From assembly GCF_902459655.1 (NCBI RefSeq), contig NZ_CABPSB010000011.1, forward strand, positions 124,001-188,000: a stretch of 64,000 nt of DNA, read 5' to 3'. The stretch comes from Pandoraea anhela (GTDB lineage: Bacteria; Pseudomonadota; Gammaproteobacteria; Burkholderiales; Burkholderiaceae). The position numbers were made by a program, and so were the translations under genes. The notes beneath the pieces were generated by a model. That model made no database searches. It was not told where the DNA came from and worked only from the letters and a program-made list of their open reading frames with translations. Below, one piece after another: positions 1-19,882 of the stretch; within the stretch, counting starts at the first letter, position 1; every line of letters starts with the position of its first letter.

Positions 1-1017
1 CGTTTCAAGCCCCGGGCCACCGGAAGCGTTCTTGAAGACGTTCGGATCGCGTTTGCGCTCCAGCCCCCAGCTGACGTGATCCGACGAGACGAACGTGCAG
101 TTGCCTGCGGCAATGTGCGTCCAGAGCTGGTCGACCTCGGCCTTCGGGCGAATCGGCGGATAGTGTTTTGTCAACGCACCGAATTTCGCCGTGTGTTCTT
201 CGTGGTTGAGCATCAGGTATTGGACGCATGTCTCGATGCTCACGGCGTGTCCTGCGTTGCGGTACGTCTTGAATATCTCGAAGCCGCGCGACGTCGACAC
301 ATGCACCGCGTGCGCGCGCGCACCGGATTGCGCGCCGATCTCGTAAATCAGGGCGGTCGCCAGGTTTTCGATCAGCGGTGTGTGCGCGCGGTGAAACGCG
401 TCCCAACCGACGTCGTTCGCCGCCATCAGCCGCTGCACGTTTTTTCGCGTGAGTTCCTGCATCTGGTTGTGGACCCCGCACGCCAGGCCAGCCGGGGCGA
501 TGCGGGTGAAGGCCGCGAGAAGATCGTCTTCTTCGATGCGGGGGAAGCGCCCCGGCGCGGCTTCGAACGTGGAAAACTTGAACGCGCAAACGCCGCCTTC
601 GATGAGGCCGGCAATGGCGTCGAGCCCATGCTCTGCGTCGATCGTGCCGTAAAGCGCCACGTCGACATGGCAGTCACGTTCCGTTTCCGCGATCTTCTCG
701 TCAAGACGGGCGCGGTGCGATACCGGACCGCTCGCGTCATACGGCATATCCACCATGACGGTAATGCCGCCGGCGGCGGCTGCGCGTGAGGCATGACCGA
801 GGCCTTCCTGATCCGCCTGACTGCCGGCATGCACCTGGCCGTCGACGATGCCTGGCAGGACCCAGCAACCGCGCGCGTCCACCGATTCGCCGGCCGACGG
901 GGGCGTGCCATGGCCTCGGGCGACGATCCTGCCGTCTCGAATGCCGAGCCATCCGTCGTGTTGAACGCGATCGGCATCGACGAGGTTTCCGCGCACGATT
1001 TTTTCGAAATCGCTCAT
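1..1017 (-). CDS. Amidohydrolase (dihydroorotase/hydantoinase-like), 3' end outside window
   Basis: Cyclic amidohydrolase of the dihydroorotase/allantoinase/hydantoinase superfamily, a cytoplasmic metal-dependent ring-opening enzyme. It is read on the minus strand from ATG at 1017 and runs off the left edge, so about 339 residues are visible. Superfamily landmarks are in order: the strand-1 motif (VDGQVHAG), a GGVCAFKFS segment with the lysine that is usually carboxylated, CGVHNQ, AVHVSTSRG and SSDHVSWG. The usual HxH of strand 1 is QxH here. It is divergent from the LysR gene at 1129. If the neighbouring operon degrades a thiohydantoin, a hydantoin-propionate hydrolase role is plausible; that is inference. 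Confidence 0.85.
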   Translation of the reverse strand, partial: MSDFEKIVRGNLVDADRVQHDGWLGIRDGRIVARGHGTPPSAGESVDARGCWVLPGIVDGQVHAGSQADQEGLGHASRAAAAGGITVMVDMPYDASGPVSHRARLDEKIAETERDCHVDVALYGTIDAEHGLDAIAGLIEGGVCAFKFSTFEAAPGRFPRIEEDDLLAAFTRIAPAGLACGVHNQMQELTRKNVQRLMAANDVGWDAFHRAHTPLIENLATALIYEIGAQSGARAHAVHVSTSRGFEIFKTYRNAGHAVSIETCVQYLMLNHEEHTAKFGALTKHYPPIRPKAEVDQLWTHIAAGNCTFVSSDHVSWGLERKRDPNVFKNASGGPGLET

Positions 1018-1128
1018 GTCACGTTGCCCTTTGATAGTGGAGTGAACACGAGAATGGTACGCAAGGAGAACTTGAGGTCGCATATACTTAATCTTCGTGC
1101 ATCCATAACGCGAAGTTAATAGACCGCC

Positions 1129-2016
1129 ATGCGACTCAATTTGCGACAGATCGAAGTCTTCCGGGCCATCATGATCACCGGTTCGATCAGCGGGGCCGCG
1201 AAGTATCTGCACGTGTCGCAACCCGGTATCTCCAGATTGATCGCCTACACCGAGAATCGCCTGGGCCTGAAGTTGTTCGATCGGGTCAAGGGACGCCTCT
1301 ATGCCACGCCCGAGGCGCGCAGCTTGTTCGCGGAGCTGGAAAGCGTGTTCGAAGGGCTTCAGCGCGTGAACGACTTTGCGCAGGATCTGGTGGAAAACAA
1401 GACCGGCGTGTTGCGTATCGTATGCAGCCCGAGCCTTGGCTTGTCGCTGATTCCCCGCGCGGCGGCGCTTTTCTACCAGCGGCATCCGGATGCGCGCCTC
1501 ATCGTCAAGACGATGCTGCCGGACACCATGGTCCACTCGCTGCTCACGCAACAAGTCGAGGTCGGCATCGTGTTCTTGCAGGAGTCGCATCCGAACTTGC
1601 AGTCGCAGCTGCTCTACGACAACAAGATGGTCGTGGTCATGCCGCCCGATCATCCGCTCAGCGAGCGCGGTACGCTGACGGTCGCCGATCTCTGCGGCTA
1701 TCCGTTTATCGGCTACAGCAGCGACATTCCGATGGGGCGCGCCATTCGGGAGTTGTTCAGCGAGACGGAGGTCATGCCCCGGATGAAAGCCGAAGTGCAG
1801 CAAGTGCACATGGCATGCGCGATGGTTCATGCGGGCTTGGGACTCGCGCTGGTCGACGAATTGACGATGAGCGACCCGATCTGGTCGAGTTCGCTGGCGG
1901 TTCGCCCGCTGATCCCGACGGTCACGCTCCCGGTCAGCGCCCTGCATCTCGCGCACTCGCCGCTTTCCCGTCTGGCGCAGGAATTCGTGGGCCTTCTGGC
2001 GTCTCTCGCCCCGTAA
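1129..2016 (+). CDS. LysR-family transcriptional regulator
   Basis: LysR-type regulator of 295 residues, the usual family length. The N-terminal winged helix-turn-helix (LRQIEVFRAIMITGSISGAAKYLHVSQPGISR) is followed by a periplasmic-binding-protein-like effector domain from about residue 90. It sits between the divergent amidohydrolase and the transporter-lyase operon that begins at 2299, so it is the obvious local regulator. A perfect 7-1-7 palindrome at 2123-2137, between this gene and the operon, is a candidate binding site. The effector is unknown; a substrate or intermediate of the downstream pathway is likely. Confidence 0.93.
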   Translation: MRLNLRQIEVFRAIMITGSISGAAKYLHVSQPGISRLIAYTENRLGLKLFDRVKGRLYATPEARSLFAELESVFEGLQRVNDFAQDLVENKTGVLRIVCSPSLGLSLIPRAAALFYQRHPDARLIVKTMLPDTMVHSLLTQQVEVGIVFLQESHPNLQSQLLYDNKMVVVMPPDHPLSERGTLTVADLCGYPFIGYSSDIPMGRAIRELFSETEVMPRMKAEVQQVHMACAMVHAGLGLALVDELTMSDPIWSSSLAVRPLIPTVTLPVSALHLAHSPLSRLAQEFVGLLASLAP

Positions 2017-2122
2017 TCTCTCGTGAATCGGTCGGTGATCCTGACCGAGTTTTCCGCCTGTCCACTGCCGCGCGCAATGCAAAGCACATAACCGCGTGTT
2101 ATGGGTGGCACTCAAAAAAGTA

Positions 2123-2137
2123 ATTTCGTGACGAAAT
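2123..2137. promoter_or_regulatory. Palindromic operator candidate ATTTCGT-G-ACGAAAT
   Basis: Perfect inverted repeat with 7-bp arms around one base, about 160 bp upstream of the ABC operon start. It lies in the 282-bp gap between LysR and the substrate-binding protein, otherwise empty of genes. It has the T-N11-A form typical of LysR sites. Binding is inferred. Confidence 0.5.
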
Positions 2138-2298
2138 ATGGCTCCCTAGACTGGGGACACCTTAGCCATGGGTCACGGCTTTTCGACGGTAGTTCTCGAC
2201 GTGCGTTGACCTGTTGGCTCTGAAGCGCCGGTGTCGTGCCGGCAACGGCCGCAGCGGGGAGCACGTTGCGGCGAAATCTACGTCAAGAACGAGCCGAA

Positions 2299-3960
2299 AT
2301 GAGCCACCAAAACAGTAGCGTGATCGAGTGTCTTCGTCGTCAAGCGGGGGAGCCTGGGAATGATCTTGTCGATGCCTTCGTGTCGCAAACGATCGATCGA
2401 CGCGCGTTCATGCGCGCCGCCAGCGTTCTCGGTCTGACGTCGGTTGCCGGGGCGCTCCTCGGGGTCGGCACGGCCGCCCATGCCTCCGAAGCGAGGGCAG
2501 GAAAGGTCGGCGGCACGCTGCGCATCGCCCACATGGTGCCCGCCGGCGTGGTCGATCCGATGACCGTCATCGATGGACCCGGCACCGCCCTCATCAGTCA
2601 GACGGGCGAGTATCTGATCTTCAGCGACGCCGCAAGCCAGGTGCTCAAGCCGTCGCTGGCGACGGCCTGGCAGGCGAACGACAAAGGAGACGTCTGGACG
2701 TTCAAGCTGCGCAACAACGTGAAGTTTCACGACGGTCGCGCCATGACCGCGAAGGATGTCGTTGCGACCTTCGATCGCCTGACGGACAAATCGAAGGTGT
2801 CCGCCGCGCTGTCGATCTTCCGTAACGTGCTGTCCAAAGGCGGCGTCAAGGCCATCGACGATTTCACCGTCCAGTTCCATCTGGACGCGCCCAACGGCAA
2901 CTTCCCGTCCTACGTTTCCTCCGATACGGCCAACGCCGTCATTCTTCCGTACGACTACGCGGGGAGTTACGAGAAGTCGTTCATCGGCACCGGGCCGTTC
3001 AAGCTGGAGAAGTACCAGACCAAGGTCGGGGCCTCGTTCGTGCGGAACCCGGATTATTGGGGCGCTCCGGCTCGCCCGGACCGTGTCGAATTCTCGTTCT
3101 ACGCCGATCAGCCTGCGCTCATGCTGGCCCTTCAGGGCGGACGTGCCGACGTCATGACGAACTTCAGCGCGCATGCCGGACTCGGCGTGCTGAACAACCC
3201 GGCCTACAAGGTGCTGAGCGTGCGCTCGAGCTCCCACCGCCAGATCCACATGAAGACCGATGCGGGCCCGTTCAAGGACAAACGCGTGCGCCAGGCGCTT
3301 GCCATGACGCTCGATCGGGAGTTGATCGTCAAGGGATTGCTGCGCGGATGGGCGGTCATCGGTAACGACAGTCCTTTCGCGGCGGTATTCCCCTCGACGG
3401 ACACCTTTGTGCCGCAGCGCAAGAAGGATATCGAAGGTGCGAAGAAGTTGCTGGCGGCTGCCGGTGTTCCGAACGGCTTCAAGGCGACGTTGACCACGGG
3501 GCGCTTCAAGGAGATTCCCGACCTCGCAGTCATCATCCAGAACGGCGCCAAGGAGATCGGCATCGACATCGATCTCAAGCTCGAGAGTCAGGAGCTGTAT
3601 TACGGTGCGGGCAAGCCGGGCCGCTCGGATTGGCTCGACGCGAACTTCGGCATCACCGATTACGGCCACCGTGGCGTGCCGAACGTGCTGATCAACGCGC
3701 CATTCGTCACGGGCGGGACTTGGAACTCGGCGCGCTTTGCAAATGACGCTTACGACAAGCTCGTCGCGCAATACACCGCTGCGCTCGACCTGACGACGCA
3801 GCGCCGTGTGGCCGGCGAGATGCAGCGGCTGTTGCTCGACGAGACGCCGGTCATCATTCCGTACTTCCTCGACTCGCTGATGGTCAGCAAGGCCAATATC
3901 AGCGGTGTGAAGTTCTCGCCGATCGGGCAAGTCAACTTCAGCGACGTGTCGATTGGGTAA
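2299..3960 (+). CDS. ABC transporter substrate-binding protein, family 5 (peptide type), Tat signal
   Basis: Extracytoplasmic solute-binding protein of the DppA/OppA class (SBP_bac_5), 553 residues from ATG 2299. A GTG at 2236 would give 574 residues but lacks support. The N-terminus has a twin-arginine motif (IDRRAFMRAA) before a hydrophobic stretch ending near AHASEA, so export by Tat is predicted. The mature part shows the typical ALATAW-like, WTFKLRNNVKFHDG and TGPFKLEKY segments. It is the first gene of a continuous importer operon with two permeases and a fused double ATPase. Family-5 binding proteins also take non-peptide solutes; the downstream enzymes suggest a betaine or imidazole-thione type substrate. 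Confidence 0.93.
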   Translation: MSHQNSSVIECLRRQAGEPGNDLVDAFVSQTIDRRAFMRAASVLGLTSVAGALLGVGTAAHASEARAGKVGGTLRIAHMVPAGVVDPMTVIDGPGTALISQTGEYLIFSDAASQVLKPSLATAWQANDKGDVWTFKLRNNVKFHDGRAMTAKDVVATFDRLTDKSKVSAALSIFRNVLSKGGVKAIDDFTVQFHLDAPNGNFPSYVSSDTANAVILPYDYAGSYEKSFIGTGPFKLEKYQTKVGASFVRNPDYWGAPARPDRVEFSFYADQPALMLALQGGRADVMTNFSAHAGLGVLNNPAYKVLSVRSSSHRQIHMKTDAGPFKDKRVRQALAMTLDRELIVKGLLRGWAVIGNDSPFAAVFPSTDTFVPQRKKDIEGAKKLLAAAGVPNGFKATLTTGRFKEIPDLAVIIQNGAKEIGIDIDLKLESQELYYGAGKPGRSDWLDANFGITDYGHRGVPNVLINAPFVTGGTWNSARFANDAYDKLVAQYTAALDLTTQRRVAGEMQRLLLDETPVIIPYFLDSLMVSKANISGVKFSPIGQVNFSDVSIG

Positions 3961-3975
3961 GGACGGGAGAGTCAT

Positions 3976-4983
3976 ATGCATCGACGGTTCATTCTCGGCA
4001 TGTTGACGCCATCCGCGCGCGTTCGCGGGGCCGCCGGCGTGCTGCTCGCGAAATGCGCACTGCTGTTCGTCACGCTCGTGCTGCTAAGCCTGCTGGTTTT
4101 CTTCGGAGGCCAGTATTTGCCCGGCGACATCGGGCGCGCCATTCTCGGTCCGCTCTCCGACCCGCAGGCCGTGGCCAACCTCAATCATCAGCTTGGGGTG
4201 GATCGCCCGCTCTTCGAGCAGTACTCGGGGTGGATCGTCGCGTTCGCCCAGGGGGATATGGGGGTCTCGTACCTGTTGCGAGAGCCCGTGGCGCCCATCG
4301 TGCTCGGCGCGCTGTTCAACTCGCTGAAACTGGGCGCAATGGCGTTTCTCATCGTCGTCCCGCTCGGCATTCTGGGCGGTGTCGCCGGTGCTTTGCACCA
4401 AGGTCGCTGGATCGATCGCGCCATCACGATCGGTGGCGTCTCCGCAACGGTCGTGCCGGAATTCGTGTCGGCGCTCGGGCTGATCCTGGTGTTCGGCGTC
4501 TGGCTCCAATGGCTTCCCATCGATGCCGTGGTGCCCGAAGACGCGGGTTGGGTGGAGCAACTGCGGCATCGGGTGCTGCCGGTACTGCCGCTCATTCTGG
4601 GTTACTTCGGCTACATCGCCCGAATGGCTCGCGCCGGCATGATCGAGGCGCTCGACGCGGACTACACCAGAACCGCCACGCTGAAGGGGCTGCCGCGCCG
4701 GGTTGTGGTGGTCCGCCATGTCCTGCGCAATGCGCTTTTGCCCACGCTCACCGTGTCGGCCACGCAGCTTGGCTACATGATCGGCGGACTCGTCGTGGTC
4801 GAGACACTGTTTCACTACCAGGGCATCGGCTCGGTCATCTACAACGCGGCGAAGTCGAAGGACTTTCCGGTACTCGAGGCGAGCGTTCTGCTCATCGGCG
4901 TGGTCTACACGCTCTCGAATCTGAGTGCCGACATTCTTAACGTGTTACTTAACCCTCGCTTGCGCAGCAGGGGGAACGCATGA
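3976..4983 (+). CDS. ABC transporter permease (DppB type)
   Basis: Inner-membrane permease of a dipeptide/oligopeptide-type importer, 335 residues. The binding-protein-dependent transport signature is seen around residues 210-260 (YIARMARAGMIEAL, YTRTATLKGLPRR). A DppB-like N-terminal segment ends in PGD, followed by a short loop with LGVDRPLFEQY. It starts 15 bp after the binding protein and overlaps the next permease by 4 bp (ATGA), indicating translational coupling. Confidence 0.93.
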   Translation: MHRRFILGMLTPSARVRGAAGVLLAKCALLFVTLVLLSLLVFFGGQYLPGDIGRAILGPLSDPQAVANLNHQLGVDRPLFEQYSGWIVAFAQGDMGVSYLLREPVAPIVLGALFNSLKLGAMAFLIVVPLGILGGVAGALHQGRWIDRAITIGGVSATVVPEFVSALGLILVFGVWLQWLPIDAVVPEDAGWVEQLRHRVLPVLPLILGYFGYIARMARAGMIEALDADYTRTATLKGLPRRVVVVRHVLRNALLPTLTVSATQLGYMIGGLVVVETLFHYQGIGSVIYNAAKSKDFPVLEASVLLIGVVYTLSNLSADILNVLLNPRLRSRGNA

Positions 4984-5894
4984 GTATTGATGTGATCACC
5001 CAAACCAAAGTCGACGACGTTGCCAAGCGCAACCCGCCAGGTCGCCAGGCGACGTGCGATACCGGAAGAAAGCCTCGCGGCCCGGCACATTCGTTGCTGC
5101 GCTCGCCAACCTTCATGTGCGGCGCCGCCGTCATTGTTTTCTGGGCGGTATGTGCGGGGTGGGGCGTGCATCTGGTGCCCTGCGACCCCTACGCGTCGGA
5201 TCCGCTCGCGGCGCTTCAGCCGCCGTCGCTGGACCACTGGTTCGGAACGGATCAGTTGGGTCGGGACGTCTTTTCGCGCGTCATCGTGGGCTCGCGCGAC
5301 ATATTGACGATTGCGCCGCTCGCCACGCTGCTCGGCGCGGTGGGCGGAACGATGCTCGGCCTGACGATGGGCTATTACCGGGGCGTGGTGGATCAGCTCC
5401 TGAGCCGCGTCGTCGATGCCATGCTGGCGTTGCCGATGGTGATCGTGGCGCTGCTGGCGCTGGCGGGACTCGGGCCGTCGAACGCCACGGTGATCTACGT
5501 GATCGGCATCGTGTTCGCGCCGGTCGTGGCGCGAACGGTGCGCACCGCCGTGATCACCGAGCGCTCGCTGGACTATGTCGCTGCGGCGCAGGCACGCGGT
5601 GAATCGGCGCCCTACATCATGTTCGCGGAAATTCTCCCCAACGTGCTGCCGCCGATTCTGGTGGAGTCGAGCGTTCGTCTGGGCTACGCCATCTTTACGG
5701 TCGCGACCCTGTCCTTCCTCGGATTCGGCATTCAACCGCCCTCGGCGGACTGGGGGCTTGCGTTGGCCGACAACTACGGCTTCATGCTGGGCGGCGCGTG
5801 GTGGAACGTGGTTTTCTACGCGCTGGCCATCGCCTCGCTGGTGGTGGCGATCAATCTGGTCTCGGACGGCTTTCAGGGAGCATGTCAGCGATGA
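4980..5894 (+). CDS. ABC transporter permease (DppC type)
   Basis: Second inner-membrane permease, 304 residues, of the DppC/OppC class. The conserved HWFGTDQLGRDVFSR motif is at about residues 80-95 and the EAA loop (DYVAAAQARGES) near 200. It overlaps the upstream permease by 4 bp and the ATPase start by 4 bp. It is expected to form a heterodimer with the 3976 permease. Confidence 0.94.
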   Translation: MSIDVITQTKVDDVAKRNPPGRQATCDTGRKPRGPAHSLLRSPTFMCGAAVIVFWAVCAGWGVHLVPCDPYASDPLAALQPPSLDHWFGTDQLGRDVFSRVIVGSRDILTIAPLATLLGAVGGTMLGLTMGYYRGVVDQLLSRVVDAMLALPMVIVALLALAGLGPSNATVIYVIGIVFAPVVARTVRTAVITERSLDYVAAAQARGESAPYIMFAEILPNVLPPILVESSVRLGYAIFTVATLSFLGFGIQPPSADWGLALADNYGFMLGGAWWNVVFYALAIASLVVAINLVSDGFQGACQR

Positions 5895-8020
5895 ATGCTC
5901 GGGTGCCGAATGTGAATATCTCCTTGGGCGAGCCGCAACGCCCCGTGCTGCGCGTGAGTGACCTGTCGATCGCCTACGCCGAGCAGGGAAAGCGCAACGA
6001 CATCGTCCATCACCTCACGTTGAGTATCGGCGAGGGCGAGGCTTACGGGCTTGTCGGTGAGTCGGGGTGCGGGAAGTCGACGGTGGCAATGGCGATCATG
6101 AGCCACTTGTCCCGCAACGGCAGGGTCGTGAACGGACGCATTGAAATCGCCGGGAAGGACGTCGCACGGCTCAATCGTGCCGAATTGCGGCAACTGAGGG
6201 CGAACGATGTCGCGATGGTGTACCAGGATCCGGGGCGCGCATTGAACCCCTCGCTGACGATCGGTCGCCAGATGGCCGAAGCGTTCGAAGCGTCCGGCGT
6301 CGGCAAGACAAAGGCCGTGGAGGGGGCGCTGGACATGCTCCGGCGGGTGCGCATTCAGCGCGTCGAAAGTGTCATGCAGAGTTACCCTCACGAGCTCTCC
6401 GGGGGGATGCAGCAGCGCATCGTGATCGCAATGGCGCTGGCGAAGAACCCGTCGCTGCTGATTCTCGACGAGCCGACGACCGGTCTGGATGTCACGATCG
6501 AAGCCGAGGTTCTGGATCTGATTTCGGCGCTGCGTCGCGAATTCTCGACAGGCATTTTGCTGATCAGTCACAACCTCAGCGTTGTGCGTCGCGTCTGCGA
6601 GCGAATCGGCGTGCTGTATGCCGGGCGTTTGGTGGAAGAGGGCCGCGTAGACGACGTGCTCGACTCCCCCCGTCACCCCTACACCGCCGCATTGCTTCAA
6701 TGCATTCCCGGGGCCAACGGCAGCCCGTCGAACAAGTTCGAGGGCCGGCTGAACACCATTTCGGGCGAGTTGCCCTCGCCGGGCGAGCGGATTGCCGGGT
6801 GCGCTTACGCGCCACGCTGCGCCCGGCGCAGCGCCGAGTGCGAGGTCGTCGCCCCGGTGCTGACGCCGCTGGACGACGCCAGGCATGGCCGCTTCGTAAG
6901 TTGTCACTACGCCGGGGCCGCGATGGCGCGGGTCGAGCCGGTTGAGTTGGCTGAGCCGGTTGAGCCGACCGTGCCGCCGGCGCCACAGGTAAGCCGCCCG
7001 TCCGCCCGCGACGATGTGCCGATGGTTCGCGTGAGAAACGTGAGCAAATCGTGGCGCGTGAAAGGACGCGCCGTGCGCGGCCTCGATGAGATTTCATTCG
7101 ACATCCTGCGAGGCGAAACGCTTGGGCTCGTCGGCGAGTCCGGCAGTGGCAAGACCACGCTGGCGAAGCTGATCATGGGGATGATCGCGGCGGACGAAGG
7201 CGGTGTCGTCGAGTTCGACGGGGCGGCGCTCGCGTCGCGCGTGACGGCGCGAAGCAAAGCGCAGATCGGTGCGATGCAGATCGTCTTCCAGAATCCGGAC
7301 TCGGCGCTCAATCGTTCGCATTCGGTCAGGAAGATCGTCGCAAGATCGCTGACGAAGCTCTCCGGCGGTTCGGGTACCGCCGAGCGCATCGGCGCACTGG
7401 TGAAGTCGGTCCGTTTGCCGTTGCGCTACCTTCCGGCAAAGCCACGACAACTCTCCGGCGGACTCAAACAACGCGTCGCCATCGCCCGCGCGTTCGCCGG
7501 CAGCCCGAGCCTGGTCGTGTGCGACGAACCCACCTCCGCGCTGGATGTGTCCGTTCAAGCCTCGATTCTCAATCTGCTGGCGGATTTGCAGGCGCGCGAA
7601 CGCGTGAGTTATCTGCTGATTTCGCACGACGTCAACGTCATTCGCTATCTGGCCGACCGGGTGGCGGTGCTTTACCACGGCTGGCTGCTGGAGATCGGGC
7701 GGGTTTCCGACGTTTTCAGCTTTCCGGTGCATCCCTACACGGAGGTCTTGCTCGGGGCGTCCGCCAGGATGAAGCAAGGCGAGGCGGGCGCCGTATCGGT
7801 CGACGCGTCGTCGCCGATGCCATCGGATGCGGCGAATGAAGCCGATGCAGCGGAGGCTGCGCATGTTCATGGCTGCAAGTTCGAGTCGCGCTGCCCCCGT
7901 TCGTTAGGCGAGGTCTGCAAGACGTCGCTGCCGGCGTGGCAGGAGATCGGGGCACATCGGATACGTTGCCACATTCCCCTGAACGACCTGAAGCGCTATC
8001 AGGCTTCGGATTCGCGTTGA
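5891..8020 (+). CDS. ABC transporter fused double ATPase (DppD-DppF type)
   Basis: Energising subunit with two complete nucleotide-binding domains in one chain, 709 residues. Domain 1 has Walker [10 protein letters not shown], signature LSGGMQQR and Walker B LLILDEPT. Domain 2 has [17 protein letters not shown] and LVVCDEPT. Each half ends in the oligopeptide-type Cys-containing C-terminal segment (CAYAPRC, CKFESRC). ATG 5891 is preferred because AGGGAG at 5875-5880 lies 10 bp upstream; ATG 5882 is almost in contact with that site. Fusion of DppD and DppF is common in Burkholderiaceae. A proline- and valine-rich linker joins the halves. Confidence 0.93.
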
Positions 8021-8170
8021 CGCATTGAGCTTCTGCTGACCGCCGAGCTCGTTCGACGCGTCGGGATCGCAAATAGAACTGGAGATTCTGTCTCGCTTCG
8101 GGGGCTTTTCCCCGAGGCGATCGGGGGTGGGCGTGTCATACGATGAAGTCTATTTAATTAGGAATACTAT

Positions 8171-9316
8171 ATGAAATCGCTTTGGGTTGCAGGGGTGTTG
8201 GCGGGAGTCGTGGGGGTGGGCGTGGCACACGCGCAGAGCAACGTGACGATTTACGGCGTCATTGACGAGGGATTCAACTATACAAACAACGTCAATGGGG
8301 TATCGAACTACGAGCTCCAGAGCGGCTATGTGCAGGGAAGCCGCTTCGGATTGCGCGGCTTCGAGGATCTCGGCGATGGAACCAAGGCGATTTTCCGCCT
8401 GGAGAACGGGTTCAACATCAACAACGGCAAGTTGGGGCAGGGCGGACGCATGTTCGGCCGATCCGCCTACGTCGGACTCTCGGATAACAAACTCGGCACG
8501 CTCACGCTCGGGCGTCAGTACGACTCAGTCGTCGACTTCATCGGACCGCTGACGGCCAACGGCAACTGGGCCGGGTACATGTTTTCGCATCCGTTCGACA
8601 ACGACAACACGGACAACTCGTTTCGGGTCAACAACAGCGTCAAGTATCAAAGTCCGGATCTGGGCGGCTTCCAGTTCGGCGGCCTGTACGGTGCGAGCAA
8701 TCAGGTCGGCGGATTTTCGAACAACCGGCTCATGAGCCTGGGGGCAACCTACGCCAACGGCCCATTGACGTTCGGTGCGGCGTTCATGAACGTCGACAAC
8801 CCCGCGAGCGCGGGGAATACCGGCGGGGCCGTGGCCGGTGGCGATGGCAGCTTCGTTGCCGAACGTCAGCGCATCTTCGGCGCGGGCGTGAATTACGTCT
8901 ACGGCCCGGCGACGTTCGGGTTCGTGTACACGAATACGAATCTCAGTCGCCCGACCGCCAGCCTGTATGTAAGCGGGTCTATCGGTACGCCGTCGTCCAT
9001 CAAGTTCAACAACTTCGAGCTGAACGTGAAGTATCAGATCTCGCCGATGCTCTTCCTCGGCGCGATGTTCCTTCACACGGAGGCGACTTACACCGCGAGC
9101 AAGCCGTCGCATCCGAAGTGGAACGAGGTGGCGCTGATGGCGGATTACAACCTTTCCAAGCGCACCGATGTTTACGTGCAGGGTGCCTATCAGCGGGTTT
9201 CCGGGGACACGACAGGTGCGCTCGGCATCGATAACGCCTACATCCCGGGGGCGGACGATTCGTCCGCCAATCGCAGTCAGTCGATCGTTCGCATTGGACT
9301 TCGGCACAAGTTTTGA
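8171..9316 (+). CDS. Gram-negative porin (OmpC/Omp32-like)
   Basis: Outer-membrane 16-strand trimeric porin of the betaproteobacterial type, 381 residues. A signal peptide ends at AHAQS, followed by the usual NVTIYGVIDEGFNY first strand, the internal GSRFGLRGFEDLGDG and FGRSAYVGLS motifs, and a C-terminal IVRIGLRHKF ending in Phe, the outer-membrane sorting signal. It lies 150 bp after the ATPase and only 24 bp before the lyase gene, so it is probably co-transcribed and serves as the outer-membrane entry route for the same substrate. TTAGGA upstream of the start is a plausible ribosome site. Confidence 0.94.
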   Translation: MKSLWVAGVLAGVVGVGVAHAQSNVTIYGVIDEGFNYTNNVNGVSNYELQSGYVQGSRFGLRGFEDLGDGTKAIFRLENGFNINNGKLGQGGRMFGRSAYVGLSDNKLGTLTLGRQYDSVVDFIGPLTANGNWAGYMFSHPFDNDNTDNSFRVNNSVKYQSPDLGGFQFGGLYGASNQVGGFSNNRLMSLGATYANGPLTFGAAFMNVDNPASAGNTGGAVAGGDGSFVAERQRIFGAGVNYVYGPATFGFVYTNTNLSRPTASLYVSGSIGTPSSIKFNNFELNVKYQISPMLFLGAMFLHTEATYTASKPSHPKWNEVALMADYNLSKRTDVYVQGAYQRVSGDTTGALGIDNAYIPGADDSSANRSQSIVRIGLRHKF

Positions 9317-9340
9317 TCATTCCTAATCTAGGGGAAAACG

Positions 9341-10864
9341 ATGGAGATTCTTCTCGGAGAACAGGCGCTGTCTGTTCGCGATGTCACGAAAGTCGCACGC
9401 GGTGAGTGCGGGGTAGCGCTGTCCCCGGTCGCACGTGCGCGGCTTGAACGCTCGCGTGAGCTATTGGAACGTTGGGCCAGCGAGGATCGGGCGATCTACG
9501 GAATGACGCGCGGTCTCGGGCACAAGGTCACTCAGGCCATTCCGCGAGAGGCTCGCTCGCGGTTTAGCGAAATGCTCCTCCGAGCGCGAGCCACCGGTGC
9601 GGGCGGTTACTTCGGCAACGACGTGGTTCGGGCGTCGATGTTCGTGCGTTCGGCGGGCCTGGCGCTTGCCGGGGCCGGCGTGCGGGACATCGTCGTCGAC
9701 ACGCAACTCGCCATGTTGGAAAAAGGCGTGTACCCAAGAGTCCCGAAGGTCGGGTCGGTCGGCGCTGCCGATCTGGTGTTGTGCGCCAATCTTGCGTTGC
9801 CGATCATCGGAGACGGTTTCGTCGAGTATCAGGGCCAAGTCGTTGCCAGCGCCGAAGCCATGGCCGCCGCGGGCATCGGGATCGTCCAGCTAAAGGAGAA
9901 GGAAGGGCTGGCGCTGTGCAGCTCCAATGCCGTGTCCGTGGCCCTCGGGGCGCTCGTCGTCGATGAACTCGAGACGCTGCTGCTTGCCACCGAAGCGACC
10001 GCGGCGCTCTCGCTGGAAGCATTTCGCGCCAACCTCAGTCCGATCGACGAGCGCCCCGCACAGGCACGCCCGGCGCCGGGGCAGGTGCGAAGTGCGAAAG
10101 CCTTGCGTGCGTTGTTGAAGGGATCCGAACTGTTCGCCGAAGGCACGGCACGTCGCCTGCAAGATCCGGTGAGCTATCGGTGCATCGTGCAAGTCCACGG
10201 GGCCGTGCGCGCCGAACTCGATCGGGCGCGCGAGAATGTGGAGATCGAGCTCAACAGCGCTTCCGACAATCCGTTGATTCTGCCCGAAGCGGACGTCATC
10301 ATTCCGACCGGCAACTTCCACACGCCATCGATGGCGATTGCGTTCGATGCGCTGCGTATCGCCATTACGCAAATGGGAACGATGATCGCCGCGCGCGTTG
10401 CCAGAAGTCTCGACGCCGCGATTACCGGCTTGACGGTCGGGCTGGCGCCGGTCTCCGACCCGACGCACACCGGCTATGGGTTGATCAAGCTCGTTGCCCA
10501 GACGCTCTCGCGAGAGTTGCGCTATCTCGCGAATCCGGTATCGATCGACGATGTCGGCCTCATCGCCGTCGAGGATCAGGTGCCCATGACGCCGGTCGCC
10601 GTGCGGCGTGCCTCCGAACAACTGGACTATCTGCGGCAGTTGATCGCCTGCGAGATGCTGGTGGCGGCGCAGGCGATCGAGTTGCGAAGCCCGGCGAGGA
10701 TCGCTGAGGCGCCCCGGCGTCTGCACGAGGCCATTCGAGAGGTGGTGCCGTCGCTGGGTGAGGACAAGAGCACCACGCGCGATATCGAGCGGTTGTCCGA
10801 GAGCTTGCGTAGCGGCCCGGTGCGGCTGGCCGTCGAGGACCTGTTCTCGCAGTGGAGCAAGTGA
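9341..10864 (+). CDS. Aromatic amino acid lyase family protein lacking the MIO triad (ergothionase-like candidate)
   Basis: Homologue of histidine ammonia-lyase, 507 residues. Family landmarks present are the YGMTRGLGHK loop (canonical YGVNTGFG), QDPVSYRC, SASDNPL, GNFHTPS and VEDQVPM. The sequence that should read GSVGASGDLAP reads GSVGAADLVLCAN: Ala142-Ala143-Asp144 replaces Ala-Ser-Gly-Asp, so the methylidene-imidazolone cofactor cannot form. Ergothionases, which eliminate trimethylamine from ergothioneine to thiourocanate, belong to this family and work without MIO. With the urocanase and DUF917 homologues downstream, a trimethylamine-releasing elimination from a betaine such as ergothioneine or its S-methyl form is the best guess. 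It overlaps the next start by 1 bp. Confidence 0.85.
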   Translation: MEILLGEQALSVRDVTKVARGECGVALSPVARARLERSRELLERWASEDRAIYGMTRGLGHKVTQAIPREARSRFSEMLLRARATGAGGYFGNDVVRASMFVRSAGLALAGAGVRDIVVDTQLAMLEKGVYPRVPKVGSVGAADLVLCANLALPIIGDGFVEYQGQVVASAEAMAAAGIGIVQLKEKEGLALCSSNAVSVALGALVVDELETLLLATEATAALSLEAFRANLSPIDERPAQARPAPGQVRSAKALRALLKGSELFAEGTARRLQDPVSYRCIVQVHGAVRAELDRARENVEIELNSASDNPLILPEADVIIPTGNFHTPSMAIAFDALRIAITQMGTMIAARVARSLDAAITGLTVGLAPVSDPTHTGYGLIKLVAQTLSRELRYLANPVSIDDVGLIAVEDQVPMTPVAVRRASEQLDYLRQLIACEMLVAAQAIELRSPARIAEAPRRLHEAIREVVPSLGEDKSTTRDIERLSESLRSGPVRLAVEDLFSQWSK

Positions 10865-12483
10865 TGGCGCGCAACATTCGTGCGCAGCGCGGCGACGTGC
10901 TGCGCTGCCAAGGCTGGCGGCAGGAATCCATTCTCCGGATGCTCGAAAACAACCTCGAGAACGGGGAGGACCCGGAGCACCTGATCGTCTACACGGGGGC
11001 GCGCGCGGCGCGTTCGTGGGACGATTTCGATCGGATTGTCTCCGCGCTCAAGTCGCTGGGAGACGATGAGACGCTGGTTTGCCAGTCCGGCCGGCCCGTC
11101 GCACGTTTCAGATCCCACGCGCGCGCGCCCCGCGTCATCATGGCCAACGGGAACGTGCTGGGACGGTGGGGCAGTCCCGACCAGTTCTTCGAGTTGACAC
11201 AGCAGGGGCTGACATGCCGCCCCGGGATGACCGCCGCTGCCTGGCAGTACATCGGCAGTCAAGGGGTGTTGCAGGGCACTTATCAGTCCTTTGTCGGCGC
11301 CGGCGCGCGGTTTTTCGGTGGCTCGCTTGCCGGGCGCTTCATTCTGAGCGCCGGCTGCGGGGGGATGGGCGGCGCACAGACGCTCGCCGGCAAGATGGCC
11401 GGGGCGGTGATCATGGTCGTGGAGCCGTCGCGGGAAAAGATCGAACGCCGCATCGCCAACGGCTACTGCGACAGGATCACCGACGACCTGTATGAAGCGT
11501 TGGGCTGGGTCGGTCGGGCCAAGGCGGCAGGCACGGCGTTGTCGATCGGGTTGGTCGGCAATGCGGCCGAGGTGCATCCCCGGCTGGTCAGCGCCGGCGT
11601 CGTTCCCGACATCGTGACGGATCAAGTCAACACGGAACCCAACCGCGGCTACATCCCGGCGGGTATGACACCGCTTGAAGCGGAGGCATTGGCGAAATCG
11701 GACCCCGAGCGCCGCAGGCAGTTGGCCAACGAGAGCATGCTGATCCATGCGCGAGCCATGCTGGCATTCAAGGACGCGGGGGCCGTCGTCTTCGAATACG
11801 GTAACGGACTCAGGCTGCGATGCGCCGATCTGGGAGAGACGCGCATGTTGTCGCTCGAGAGCTTCCTGACGATGTTCATTCGTCCGCTTTTTTGCGACGG
11901 CGTGGGGCCGTTTCGCTGGCTGGCCATGTCCGGCGATCCGGCCGATATCGACGTGATCGACGAACTGGTGGCGCAGACGTTCGCGTCGGAACACCCGATC
12001 AATCATTGGATCCCGCTGGCCCGCAAATACGTGCAGTTCTCCGGGTTGCCCGCGCGTATCGGCTGGCTTGGGCACGGGGAGCGCAGCGCACTCGCGCTCA
12101 AGGTCAATGCGGCGGTCGCCGACGGACGACTTCGCGGCCCGGTGGCGTTTACCCGCGACCATCTCGACGCCGGTTCGGTGGCGAATCCCTTCCGGGAGAC
12201 GGAAAAGATGGCCGATGGCTCCGACGCCATTTCGGATTGGCCGATCCTCAACGCGATGCTGGCGTGCTCGAACGGGGCCGATCTCGTCGCCGTGCACTCG
12301 AACGGCGGTTATGCCAATCAATCCGCCGGGCAAACGACCATCGCCGATGGCGACCCCGACTCGGCGGATCGGCTTCGTGCCGTGCTCGATGGCGACACTG
12401 GCATCGGGATCGTGCGGCACGCCGAAGCGGGGTACGAGCAAGCGCTCGGGAACCGCGCCAGGTTCAAGCTCGGAGTCCGATGA
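10864..12483 (+). CDS. Urocanate hydratase family protein (thiourocanate hydratase candidate)
   Basis: NAD-dependent hydratase of the HutU family, 539 residues (HutU is about 555). Seen are YIGSQGVLQGTYQSF, the glycine-rich GCGGMGGAQ NAD-binding loop, GLVGNAAEVHP, VTDQVN, IRPLFCDGVGPFR with the catalytic-type Cys344, FTRDHLDAGSVANP and SDAISDWP. The canonical C-terminal HHGGG-GMGYS loop is changed to HSNGGYANQSAG, so the substrate differs from plain urocanate. It directly follows the MIO-less lyase and precedes the GST with overlapping codons. Predicted reaction: hydration of (S-methyl-)thiourocanate to a thiohydantoin-type propionate. Confidence 0.88.
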   Translation: MARNIRAQRGDVLRCQGWRQESILRMLENNLENGEDPEHLIVYTGARAARSWDDFDRIVSALKSLGDDETLVCQSGRPVARFRSHARAPRVIMANGNVLGRWGSPDQFFELTQQGLTCRPGMTAAAWQYIGSQGVLQGTYQSFVGAGARFFGGSLAGRFILSAGCGGMGGAQTLAGKMAGAVIMVVEPSREKIERRIANGYCDRITDDLYEALGWVGRAKAAGTALSIGLVGNAAEVHPRLVSAGVVPDIVTDQVNTEPNRGYIPAGMTPLEAEALAKSDPERRRQLANESMLIHARAMLAFKDAGAVVFEYGNGLRLRCADLGETRMLSLESFLTMFIRPLFCDGVGPFRWLAMSGDPADIDVIDELVAQTFASEHPINHWIPLARKYVQFSGLPARIGWLGHGERSALALKVNAAVADGRLRGPVAFTRDHLDAGSVANPFRETEKMADGSDAISDWPILNAMLACSNGADLVAVHSNGGYANQSAGQTTIADGDPDSADRLRAVLDGDTGIGIVRHAEAGYEQALGNRARFKLGVR

Positions 12484-13097
12484 TGTATCGCCTTCACGAC
12501 AGCAAACTCTCCGGCAACGCGTGGAAGGTACGGTTGCTACTCTCGCGGCTGGGCATCCCTTTCGAGCGCATCACCTACGTGCTGCCCGAGGGGAAAACCC
12601 GCCAGCCATCGTTTCTGCGGATGCATGCGTTGGGCAAGGTCCCCGTGCTCGAAACACCTTCGGGCGAACACCTGTTCGAGTCGAACGCGATCTTGTGCCT
12701 GCTCGCACAGGGCACCGACATGTTGCCCGACGGATTCGCGCATGCGCAGGTCATGCAATGGTTGTTCTTCGAACAGTCCGAAGTGCTCAAGCCGTTCGCG
12801 TCGGCCCGTTACTGGATCAGCATCGCCCGTCGCGCCCACGAAAAGATCGACGAGATCTCGGCCTGGCATCTCGCGGGCAAGCGAGTGCTTTCGATCCTGA
12901 ACACGCATCTGGCCACTCGCCGGTTCATGGTGGCGGAGCGCTACAGCATCGCCGATATTGCGTTGTTCGTTTATGTGTCGATGGCGCCGGAAGGCGGATA
13001 CGACCTGACGCCTTTTCCGAACGTGACCGACTGGATCACGCGCATTCGCTCGCAAGCCGGGTTTGTGCCCCTGACGCATGAGGAGGCCGTCGCATGA
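12480..13097 (+). CDS. Glutathione S-transferase family protein
   Basis: Soluble GST-fold protein, 205 residues from ATG 12480 (ATG 12483 is equally possible). The thioredoxin-like N-terminal domain (SKLSGNAWKVRLLLSRLGI, then GKVPVLETPSG and LFESNAILCLLA with the Glu-Ser glutathione-binding pair) is followed by the helical domain with YSIADIALF. The start overlaps the hydratase stop and the stop overlaps the DUF917 start (ATGA), so it is firmly part of the pathway operon. A role in glutathione-dependent handling of a thiol, thione or methylthio group is inferred from context only. Confidence 0.9.
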   Translation: MMYRLHDSKLSGNAWKVRLLLSRLGIPFERITYVLPEGKTRQPSFLRMHALGKVPVLETPSGEHLFESNAILCLLAQGTDMLPDGFAHAQVMQWLFFEQSEVLKPFASARYWISIARRAHEKIDEISAWHLAGKRVLSILNTHLATRRFMVAERYSIADIALFVYVSMAPEGGYDLTPFPNVTDWITRIRSQAGFVPLTHEEAVA

Positions 13098-14155
13098 GCC
13101 TGCTCATCAACAGCGATAACATGGGGGCGGCCTTGATGGGCGGGCTGATCCTGTCGGCGGGCGGAAGTGGCGAGAGGAAGGCCGAGCGCAACCGTGCGCT
13201 TGCACAAATGGCGTTGATTACCGGGCCGCTGATACTGAAACAGCTCGATGAGTTGAAGGACGACGCGCAGATCATCGTCGCAACGGGCGTGAGCGCGCCC
13301 GGCTTCGGCGCGGGCCACGCAGGACCGGAAGATGCCGTCGAATCGGCCCGCATGTTGTTGCGGCACACCGGTTTCAAGCACCCTGCGGGGGTCATGCCGG
13401 CGCATGTGCCGGGTGTACTTGCGTGGGTGCAGGCGGCAGTCCTCGGACTGCCGTTGATCGATGCGGCCACCAATGGCCGGGGACACCCGACATTGATGCT
13501 CGGGAGCATGAGTGCGCCGGGCGACGATCCCGTCTCGATCTGTCAGGCGGGGTGCGGCGGCGCGAGAGATTCGCGCATCACCGTTCTCACCACCGGACCC
13601 CTTCCCATGACAGCCGCGGTGATGCGCGCCGCATCCATCGAGAACCGGGGCACGTTGCATGCGACACGCGGCCCGTACTCGGCGGCGTTCGTGAAAAAAG
13701 GCGGTGCACCGGGGGCCGTCTCGCGGGCGATGGCGATTGGCAGCACCTGGCTCGACGCGCCCCGGGGCATGCCGCAGATCGAGGCGGTCGCCGAGTGTCT
13801 CGGTGGAGAAGTCGTCGCGCTCGGACGTGTCGCGCGCTGCGACGTGACGTATCGCAACGGTTACGACATTGGCCGTGTGGCGATCTGGGACGGCGGCAAC
13901 ACGCTTGAGCTCAACGCCTGCAACGAATGGATGACGGCCGCGTACGGCGGTTTTCGCATCGCCACGTTTCCGGACCTGATTTGCACGTTCGATCCGGAGA
14001 GCGGCAAGCCGCTTGCGGTGAGCGAGATGACCGTCGACCGACGGGTGGCCGTGGTGCGCTGTGCGTCGACAGCGTTGCCGGTGGGCGCGGGAGCGCGCGA
14101 CCCCGCGGCGTTGGCGGAAGTCTCCCAGTTGATGGGGGTGTCCATGCAGGCGTGA
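13094..14155 (+). CDS. DUF917 / S-methyl-thiohydantoin desulfurase family protein
   Basis: DUF917-family protein, 353 residues, related to the hydantoin-utilisation HyuA-associated proteins. The family is now linked to S-methyl-thiohydantoin desulfurase activity, a metal-dependent hydrolysis that releases methanethiol and leaves a hydantoin. Conserved-looking stretches include LLINSDNMGAALMGG, GTGVSAPGFG-like VATGVSAPGFG, HVPGVLAWVQAA, LIDAATNGRGHPT and FPDLICTFD. RBS GAGGAGG lies just upstream of ATG 13094. Its place after a MIO-less lyase and a urocanase homologue fits desulfuration of the thiohydantoin intermediate. Confidence 0.85.
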   Translation: MSLLINSDNMGAALMGGLILSAGGSGERKAERNRALAQMALITGPLILKQLDELKDDAQIIVATGVSAPGFGAGHAGPEDAVESARMLLRHTGFKHPAGVMPAHVPGVLAWVQAAVLGLPLIDAATNGRGHPTLMLGSMSAPGDDPVSICQAGCGGARDSRITVLTTGPLPMTAAVMRAASIENRGTLHATRGPYSAAFVKKGGAPGAVSRAMAIGSTWLDAPRGMPQIEAVAECLGGEVVALGRVARCDVTYRNGYDIGRVAIWDGGNTLELNACNEWMTAAYGGFRIATFPDLICTFDPESGKPLAVSEMTVDRRVAVVRCASTALPVGAGARDPAALAEVSQLMGVSMQA

Positions 14156-14174
14156 CACGGACACACAAGCAAAG

Positions 14175-15065
14175 ATGCGCGAGCACGAACCCATGTTGAA
14201 TACCGATACGGATGCAATTCCAATGACGATGAAAGACCTGGCCGGGGCGCCGCCCCTGGTCGATGTGCAATGGCTTGCCGAGAACCTTGGCAGGGAAGAT
14301 ATCGTGGTGCTCGATGGCACGCTGTTTCTCCCGGGCGAAGGCAAGTCCGGATTCATGTCGTATCTCGACGGGCACATTCCGGGGGCTCGCTTCTTCGATA
14401 TCGACGTCTTTTCGGATCCGGACACCGATCTGCCTCACATGGTGCCCTCCGCCGGACGATTTGCTTCGCTGGCGGGCGCTTTGGGGATCGAGAATCGTCA
14501 ACACCTGGTCATTTACGACGCCAAGGGGCTTTTCTCCGCCGCGCGCGTCTGGTGGCTTTTCCGCCTGTTCGGGCATGACCGTGTGTCGGTGCTGGACGGG
14601 GGGCTGCCCAAGTGGCGCTCGGCAGGCCACCCCGTGGAGCAGCGGGGCGGGGCTCACTGGTCGCCGACGACTTTTGCCGTGGCCTTTCGCGCGGCGCTTC
14701 TCAGGGGGCTGGGCGACATGGACGAGAACTTGCGCACCGGCGCACAACAGGTGCTCGATGCCAGGCCCGCGGCCCGCTTCGACGGTCGTGTGCCGGAGCC
14801 GCGACAGGGCGTGCGTTCCGGCCATGTGCCGGCGAGCCGAAGCTTGCCGTACACGGATCTCCTTCGCGAAGACAAGACGATGCTGGCCCCGGACGTATTG
14901 CGCGCGACGTTCCAAAGTGTGGGCGTCGACGCCTCGACCCCTGTCGTCGCCACTTGCGGGAGTGGCGTGACGGCGGCCGTACTGTGTCTGGCGATGGAAG
15001 TCGCCGGGCTCTCGAGAGGTGCGTTGTATGATGGCGCATGGGCCGAGTGGGGCACGTGTCGCTAG
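14175..15065 (+). CDS. Thiosulfate/3-mercaptopyruvate-type sulfurtransferase (two rhodanese domains)
   Basis: Tandem rhodanese protein, 296 residues. The N-terminal inactive domain has DGHIPGARFFDID and LDGGLPKW. The C-terminal active domain carries Cys261 in CGSGVTA, the loop type of 3-mercaptopyruvate sulfurtransferases, and LYDGAWAEWG. It ends about ten residues earlier than typical SseA proteins. It follows DUF917 by 19 bp and closes the operon. In this context it may accept the sulfur released by the desulfurase, an inference. Confidence 0.9.
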   Translation: MREHEPMLNTDTDAIPMTMKDLAGAPPLVDVQWLAENLGREDIVVLDGTLFLPGEGKSGFMSYLDGHIPGARFFDIDVFSDPDTDLPHMVPSAGRFASLAGALGIENRQHLVIYDAKGLFSAARVWWLFRLFGHDRVSVLDGGLPKWRSAGHPVEQRGGAHWSPTTFAVAFRAALLRGLGDMDENLRTGAQQVLDARPAARFDGRVPEPRQGVRSGHVPASRSLPYTDLLREDKTMLAPDVLRATFQSVGVDASTPVVATCGSGVTAAVLCLAMEVAGLSRGALYDGAWAEWGTCR

Positions 15066-15239
15066 CGCCGGGCCCTGCCGCCAGGCGGGGTTCCGAAGGC
15101 TTTCCATTTTGGAAACACGCCGTTCAAAGTTCGACATTCCCTGATGTCCGTCGCTTTGCGATGATGACGACACGAACACGATCCGAGGACTAGGAGGGGC
15201 TTCGGGTTAGGGTGTTCGACGCATTCGGAGTGTATTCCC

Positions 15240-15629
15240 ATGTCCCTTATCGATCATCTCGATCATCTGGTGCTGACCTGCACCGATCAGGCCAGGACCG
15301 TTCGCTTCTACACCGAAGTCATGCAGATGCAGCTCGAAACCTTCGGTGCGGGCCGTATCGCTTTCCGATTCGGTCATCAGAAAATCAACTTGCACGTTCG
15401 GGGCGCGGAGTTCGAGCCGAAGGCCCACCTTCCGGTGCCGGGCGCCCTGGATCTGTGTTTCATTGCATCGGTGCCGCTGGACGCCGTCATCGAACACGTG
15501 AAGGCATGCAACGAGCCCATCGTCGAAGGTCCGGTGATGCGCACAGGGGCGACGCAGAAAATTCGTTCGATCTATCTGCGCGATCCCGATTTCAATCTGA
15601 TCGAAATTTCCGAGCTCGTGGACGACTGA
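15240..15629 (+). CDS. VOC-family protein (glyoxalase/bleomycin-resistance fold)
   Basis: Small metalloenzyme-fold protein of 129 residues. It opens with IDHLDHLVLTCTD and has FYTEVMQMQ, and closes with IYLRDPDFNLIEISE, where His, Glu and related metal ligands are expected. It resembles the STM3117-type VOC proteins. It stands alone with 174 bp upstream and 156 bp before dctA, in the same direction. Substrate not recognisable. Confidence 0.85.
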   Translation: MSLIDHLDHLVLTCTDQARTVRFYTEVMQMQLETFGAGRIAFRFGHQKINLHVRGAEFEPKAHLPVPGALDLCFIASVPLDAVIEHVKACNEPIVEGPVMRTGATQKIRSIYLRDPDFNLIEISELVDD

Positions 15630-15683
15630 CCACGACGGAAGTCGACACTCCCGGCCGTAGGTGCTGTTCGCCGGGAGCGGCGC

Positions 15684-15731
15684 CTGCCCGCCTGCGTCAG
15701 GCTGCGGGGAACGGCTGGCGCAGGCGGGCAG
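15684..15731. terminator. Strong stem-loop, 13-bp arms, upstream of dctA
   Basis: Perfect 13-bp inverted repeat (CTGCCCGCCTGCG at 15684-15696 and its complement at 15719-15731) with a 22-base loop, followed by a second 6-bp hairpin at 15736-15751. No T-run follows. It could stop the VOC transcript or shape the dctA leader. Confidence 0.45.
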
Positions 15732-15785
15732 CGGCAGTCGGGATGCCGACTCGCCAAGTATTCAAATAACGACAGGAGACAGTTT

Positions 15786-17090: not shown

Positions 17091-17194
17091 CGGTGTCGCG
17101 ACACACGCGCGACGTAGGTATAGAAATGAGCGAGATGCGAATGCGGCGCGGCGCACGGGCGCGCTTGCCCTGCGAACGCACCATCGTGAGAGCC

Positions 17195-18124: not shown

Positions 18125-18138
18125 AGGAGATCAATGCC

Positions 18139-19830: not shown

Positions 19831-19882
19831 GCGGAACGGCCTGGACGCAAAACCCTTCAGCAACAACCATGGTGACTTCTGA

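Follow-up and report, generated by a model that had tools for sequence, protein, structure and literature searches.

A candidate S-methyl-ergothioneine uptake and degradation cluster in Pandoraea anhela

Genes and layout of the cluster

The stretch of Pandoraea anhela DNA considered here (the window; 64,000 nucleotides, starting at contig position 124001 of contig 11) carries at its left edge a gene cluster that is read, with a probability of about 0.7, as a system for the regulated uptake and degradation of S-methyl-ergothioneine, a methylated derivative of ergothioneine, which is an antioxidant from the diet. The cluster itself is real and complete; the pathway type is already catalogued and is not categorically new. 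Its interest lies in the regulon, the importer, the lyase and a glutathione transferase (GST). With a complete, regulated cluster and a likely importer in hand, the breakdown of S-methyl-ergothioneine becomes testable in one organism. In human studies this compound is measured together with ergothioneine (PMC13405746 names a standard for it). The features are listed below, in window positions unless the contig is given.

Contig 11: 122338-123600, − strand, left of the window and beside ertD: ertE (NF058540)
1..1017, − strand, continuing past the left window edge (contig 11: 123662-125017): start-codon side of ertD, hydantoin-5-propionate amidohydrolase (NF058538)
1106..1118, no strand: likely LysR operator TAACGCGAAGTTA, between ertD and lysR (TAAC-N5-GTTA match)
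1129..2016, + strand: LysR-type regulator (Pfam)
2089..2101, no strand: likely LysR operator TAACCGCGTGTTA (TAAC-N5-GTTA match)
2143: the word TCCCTAGA, 54 bases past the start of TAACCGCGTGTTA, single copy in the window
2299..3960, + strand: family-5 solute-binding protein (PF00496, 257.7 bits)
3976..4983, + strand: ABC permease 1 (PF00528)
4980..5894, + strand: ABC permease 2 (PF00528)
About 5882..8020, + strand: double ABC ATPase, peptide/nickel type (PF00005 in two stretches, PF08352)
8171..9316, + strand: porin (PF13609)
9341..10864, + strand: lyase of the histidine ammonia-lyase (HAL) superfamily without the triad that forms 4-methylidene-imidazole-5-one (MIO), probable S-methyl-ergothioneine trimethylamine-lyase (PF00221)
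10864..12483, + strand: S-methyl thiourocanate hydratase, a urocanase homologue (NF058531)
12480..13097, + strand: GST, glutathione site intact (PF13409/PF02798)
13094..14155, + strand: S-methyl thiohydantoin desulfurase, DUF917 (NF058532)
14175..15065, + strand: rhodanese of the 3-mercaptopyruvate sulfurtransferase type, doubtful as a part of the pathway (NF008557)
15240..15629, + strand: VOC-superfamily protein, possible accessory

All operon genes named in an earlier note on this DNA, from the importer to the rhodanese, are borne out in their order and on the + strand by reading frames, Pfam and NCBIfam. The permease-permease, lyase-hydratase, hydratase-GST and GST-DUF917 joints overlap by 4, 1, 4 and 4 bases, as expected of a single transcript; the widest internal gap, 150 bases, lies ahead of the porin gene. 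The extent of 2299..15065 proposed in that note holds for these genes but is too narrow at its boundaries, as LysR, ErtD and ErtE also belong to the cluster, and perhaps the VOC protein. The latter has relatives in three of the 22 ordinary ergothioneine clusters described below (58-62% identical); one closer relative (83%), the one inspected among 12 listed, has no annotated ergothioneine gene within 12 kb.

The two left-edge enzymes were located as the genome's best relatives of the hydantoinase and carbamoylase of an Agrobacterium cluster. Full-length ErtD, 46% identical to the Agrobacterium enzyme, scores 664.8 bits on NF058538 (cut-off 600), and ErtE scores 638.9 bits on NF058540 (cut-off 520). 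Genes assigned to the hydantoin-opening step postulated earlier thus exist; they had been overlooked since they start right at the edge of the window.

Further downstream, positions 15786-21235 encode a DctA-like transporter, a 3-hydroxyisobutyrate-dehydrogenase-like protein, an IlvD/Edd dehydratase and a DRL/SAF oxidoreductase, which probably form an unrelated sugar-acid or acid operon.

Hydratase and desulfurase assigned to the S-methyl branch

The hydratase passes the curated model for S-methyl thiourocanate hydratases (NF058531; 956.7 bits, cut-off 880) and fails that for ordinary thiourocanate hydratases (670 bits, cut-off 930). The DUF917 protein, already linked to S-methyl thiohydantoin desulfuration in the earlier note, likewise passes the S-methyl thiohydantoin desulfurase model (NF058532; 494 bits, cut-off 450) and fails its ordinary counterpart (181 bits, cut-off 440). 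As controls, four desulfurases and one hydratase from ordinary clusters score the opposite way. Together with ErtD and ErtE, all four steps after the lyase are thus assigned above cut-off.

The window was compared within a set of 25 clusters (the window, L033, L034, L035, L037-L048, L053, L054, L063-L067, L077 and L078), comprising three of the S-methyl type and 22 ordinary ones; 21 of the latter scored below the S-methyl cut-off, and L035 was classed by similarity. Left out were L036, in which no hydratase was found, L060, in which no DUF917 was found, L049-L052, whose DUF917 is remote, and the ordinary clusters L004 and L007-L009, each represented by about 4 kb. Five near-identical Agrobacterium records were counted once, and the comparison covers a minority of plasmid DUF917 matches. 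The other two S-methyl clusters lie on plasmids of Lichenihabitans (L033) and Agrobacterium (L034), and their hydratases and desulfurases receive the same model calls as those of the window; the three are not fully independent, because the Lichenihabitans and Agrobacterium DUF917 proteins are 68% identical.

Among solved structures, 8q9v shares 61.9% identity with the hydratase and 7ned shares 51.0%; we take these to be an S-methyl enzyme and a thiourocanate hydratase, respectively. The database records state urocanate hydratase only, and the tree positions of both agree with these identities. With the window excluded from the choice, 13 positions carry one invariant letter in the four other S-methyl sequences and a different invariant letter in 23 thiourocanate hydratases. 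At these, the window hydratase has the S-methyl letter in 10, the thiourocanate letter in two and a third letter in one. Leaving out each other S-methyl hydratase in turn, by the same procedure, gives between 10/10 and 10/14 S-methyl letters. (A count of 10/10 at another set of positions is circular, since the window sequence helped to select them.) In trees, the hydratase and the desulfurase are placed among their S-methyl relatives with support values of 92 and 99 (Shimodaira-Hasegawa-like approximate likelihood-ratio test, SH-aLRT), with a program warning of long branches. The ergothioneine-type pathway proposed in the earlier note is therefore supported and narrowed to the S-methyl branch; its label 'ergothioneine or S-methyl' was too broad. 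Histidine degradation was also considered and rejected, as the genome's own HutU (1014 bits) and HutH (724 bits) are located elsewhere.

Desulfurases above the cut-off are rare. In overlapping samples, one was found among 299 genomes of the family, 399 of the order, 398 of the phylum and 229 of the class, each time in this very genome, and none among 297 and 299 genomes of two other families. A scan of genome contigs gave only two remote relatives of the desulfurase (35% and 30% identity).

Two side observations concern the plasmid clusters. Within the Agrobacterium S-methyl cluster, L034:19665-22004 encodes a molybdopterin S/N-oxide reductase, accompanied by a betaine-type ABC importer, which suggests oxidised S-methyl compounds or amine oxides. 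A plasmid of Paracoccus seriniphilus encodes an S-methyl type hydratase (L060:11986-13638; 945.9 bits) beside an amidohydrolase and an IclR regulator, with a glutathione-type importer a few genes away; neither DUF917 nor GST was found in 25 kb.

The natural substrate could also be another 2-substituted relative of ergothioneine, such as ergothioneine sulfonate or a different S-alkyl or oxidised form. A sulfonate pathway has been published, to judge by a title in the reference list of PMC13405746. The window desulfurase shares no more than 40-42% identity with its two S-methyl counterparts and sits on a very long branch, the lyase belongs to a separate lineage, the importer type is unlike those of the other clusters, and the rhodanese could handle another sulfur product. 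This rhodanese, put forward earlier as a novel member of the pathway, is by model an ordinary 3-mercaptopyruvate sulfurtransferase (NF008557; 258.4 bits, cut-off 250), and it is found in none of the other 24 clusters (searched, as for the GST and VOC proteins, over about 19.5 kb per cluster and 31 kb for L035). As both S-methyl models are passed, a substrate of this kind is considered unlikely.

Regulator, likely operator and importer

The window LysR shares 53-60% identity with its counterparts in 15 ordinary clusters from the same bacterial family (among the 22 examined), and 41% with that of an ordinary Microvirga cluster. The control regions of LysR-bearing ordinary clusters yielded the pattern TAAC-N5-GTTA, which matches the 64 kb window exactly twice (1106 and 2089; 0.06 expected), both times in control regions of the cluster; none of 100 shuffled windows had two matches. 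Each of the 16 LysR-bearing clusters contains two or three such sites (38 in total), a count made in the regions from which the pattern was read, so that only its scarcity elsewhere is independent evidence. No site was found in seven ordinary clusters that lack a LysR of this kind, nor in either plasmid S-methyl cluster or six other stretches. The operators of the ordinary clusters are placed alike, in the ertD/lysR region and ahead of the operon. The distance from the start of the operon-side site to TCCCTAGA is 54 bases in the window and eight ordinary clusters and 55 bases in two more; the word was not found in five ordinary clusters of the same genus or in Microvirga. LysR would thus act at the two sites, switching on the importer operon and ertDE, and the operator may predict further members of the regulon.

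Five genomes of the same genus (L041, L043, L044, L046 and L053) have ordinary thiourocanate clusters, each with a third TAAC-N5-GTTA site, and no HAL homologue in the stretches searched. In L041 and L053, the third site lies between a UbiD-type decarboxylase gene and an MFS transporter gene, as if thiourocanate itself were taken up.

The position of an operator ahead of the binding-protein gene ties the importer to the regulon, and is the best evidence that it serves the pathway. The family-5 importer, whose solute-binding protein has a twin-arginine-like leader (read by eye), would then carry the S-methyl betaine. Relatives of the porin (43-44% identity) occur in eight of the 22 ordinary clusters.

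Family-5 binding proteins are mostly carriers of peptides or metals, and the importer operon might accordingly be an unrelated uptake system that lies before the catabolic genes by chance. No relative of the binding protein or importer was found in the examined stretches of the other 24 clusters, and the gap of 150 bases before the porin gene could hold a separate promoter, on which the promoter scan is uninformative. Against this stand the window's sole operon-side operator and TCCCTAGA, which directly precede the importer at the spacing of the ordinary clusters. Moreover, two of six inspected relatives of the binding protein adjoin genes annotated as aromatic ring-hydroxylating dioxygenases, and one of these also adjoins a trimethylamine methyltransferase homologue, a weak hint of betaines. 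Chance adjacency is distinctly unlikely.

The regulator type, the operator, ErtD and ErtE all match ordinary clusters of the same family, and would suit ordinary ergothioneine catabolism, with a thione substrate and release of hydrogen sulfide, as in Burkholderia sp. HME13. The hydratase and desulfurase, however, lie far below the ordinary cut-offs and above the S-methyl ones, and the independently chosen hydratase positions favour the S-methyl letters by 10 to two out of 13, which makes the ordinary pathway very unlikely here. The mixture is also visible in trees: with up to 76% identity for ErtD and up to 71% for ErtE, these two enzymes fall among the family's own ordinary clusters, and their Lichenihabitans and Agrobacterium counterparts fall among clusters of other families in the phylum. 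These quick trees suggest that local ergothioneine clusters received an S-methyl core on more than one occasion.

Lyase, GST and comparison with known systems

As described in the earlier note, the lyase is a HAL homologue without the MIO triad; Ala-Ser-Gly is absent, with GSVGA-ADL in place of GSVGASGDL. Like ten ordinary-cluster lyases of its family, it has SSNA where HALs have NGTQ. It is 31-33% identical to these ten, 24-25% identical to six lyases from other families, 30.5% identical to Treponema ergothionase and 30-33% identical to two true HALs. Its absent triad and its score (364.6 bits, cut-off 539) set it apart from HutH. No NCBIfam ergothionase model was matched by this lyase or by three ordinary-cluster lyases at E 1e-100. 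The closest lyases found are five plasmid-borne proteins annotated or found as HAL homologues (L099:7992-9494, L100-L102 and L103:2992-4476; 37-41% identity), none of which has the triad. For the two with annotation, the neighbours include an ornithine cyclodeaminase homologue as well as flavin-dependent oxidoreductases (LLM), and one of the two is also near a glycine betaine importer. From its cluster context, the window lyase would act on the S-methyl betaine.

Besides the derivation of the operator and the divergence of the desulfurase, several points weigh against degradation of S-methyl-ergothioneine. Against the 22 lyases of this motif comparison, that of the window reaches only 24-33% identity, and its best PDB match, ergothionase 6s7j, leads an ordinary HAL narrowly (239.7 versus 229.6 bits). 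In the 7-17 kb around the five plasmid lyases, no hydratase, desulfurase, GST or hydantoinase relative was found; MIO-free lyases thus occur outside pathway clusters, and homology does not fix the substrate of the window lyase. Because this counts against an ergothionase by descent, it lowers the probability of the overall reading from 0.72 to 0.70. The S-methyl letter also occurs at seven of the 13 hydratase positions in the HutU encoded elsewhere in the genome, and these positions therefore partly mark 'not thiourocanate'. Finally, a sigma-70 consensus scan of positions 1-18000 returned zero promoters on the + strand, so that internal starts are neither backed nor excluded.

The most improbable alternative is that the lyase works as an ammonia-lyase whose substrate is not a betaine but an amino acid, for example a methylated or 2-methylthio histidine: the Lichenihabitans S-methyl cluster, from a lichen isolate, does have on its conjugative plasmid a lyase with the full ASG triad that passes the hutH model (L033:19754-21286), so that the branch can apparently be fed by an ammonia-lyase, but the window lyase is without the triad, on which ammonia-lyases depend.

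The lyase differs in each of the three S-methyl clusters: the triad is kept in Lichenihabitans and absent, in different ways, from Agrobacterium and the window. The GST, presented earlier as novel to this operon, in fact also stands in the two other S-methyl clusters. It occurs in three of three, each time adjoining DUF917, and in none of the 22 ordinary ones (translated search at E 1e-3 over the stretch lengths given above). The window GST retains Ser11, Pro55 and Glu67-Ser68, the glutathione-site residues. Four letters are common to the three cluster GSTs and absent from seven outside GSTs; overall, the window GST is as far from the other two cluster GSTs (38-39% identity) as from outside ones (36-45%). 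In a tree of 14 GSTs the three do not come together, so that a common origin is neither shown nor excluded. GSTs outside clusters (L061, L088 and L090) have no pathway neighbour among the families searched.

Its occurrence in only the S-methyl clusters among those examined points to a step outside the curated models. As a guess, the GST may serve a side step that depends on glutathione and is confined to the S-methyl branch, for example the removal of methanethiol or of glutathione adducts of S-methyl thiourocanate. It is possible, if doubtful, that the GST is a working part of the branch (displacement of methanethiol by glutathione, or clearance of glutathione adducts or of the cis isomer of S-methyl thiourocanate) and that the branch is a module fitted with different lyases, with or without MIO, such that various 2-methylthio-imidazole compounds feed one pathway. 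In that case, a scattered group of MIO-free lyases would have in the window enzyme its first member with a predictable substrate. Earlier work on S-methyl enzymes exists; a survey by titles and abstract openings, which left subscription journals mostly uncovered and so says little, apparently holds none on S-methyl thiourocanate or on GST in such clusters.

In the proposed S-methyl-ergothioneine pathway, LysR bound at the two conserved sites would turn on the importer operon and ertDE. The porin and family-5 ABC importer would take in the betaine, from which the MIO-free lyase would eliminate trimethylamine to give S-methyl thiourocanate. By their curated models, the hydratase is predicted to convert this to S-methyl thiohydantoin propionate, the DUF917 enzyme to hydrolyse the latter to hydantoin-5-propionate and methanethiol, ErtD to open the hydantoin to N-carbamyl-L-glutamate, and ErtE to yield glutamate, CO2 and ammonia.

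Among known systems, the Treponema denticola ergothionase (6s7j) shares with the window lyase the HAL fold and the missing MIO triad and is its best PDB match, at an identity of only about 30%. The plasmid lyases of L099-L103 are closer and also without the ASG triad, but have no hydratase, desulfurase or GST relative beside them. Catalogued S-methyl-ergothioneine catabolism (NF058531, NF058532; hydratase structures 8q9v and 8q9u) is matched in the curated cut-offs and in the 61.9% identity to 8q9v; the window differs in having its own lyase lineage, a family-5 importer and a rhodanese, and in a regulator, ErtD and ErtE that are those of its family's ordinary ergothioneine cluster. The plasmid clusters of Lichenihabitans psoromatis and Agrobacterium tumefaciens have in common with it the DUF917-GST adjacency, the S-methyl hydratase, ErtD, ErtE and a lyase, but use IclR rather than LysR, other importers and lyases of separate lineages, one of which keeps the MIO triad. 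The family's ordinary clusters (NF058529, NF058530, NF058538, NF058540) share LysR, ErtD, ErtE, the divergent layout and the operator, with the promoter word at the same spacing (54 or 55 bases) in 10 of 15; compared with these, the window has a hydratase and desulfurase of the S-methyl type, an added GST, and the importer genes placed first.

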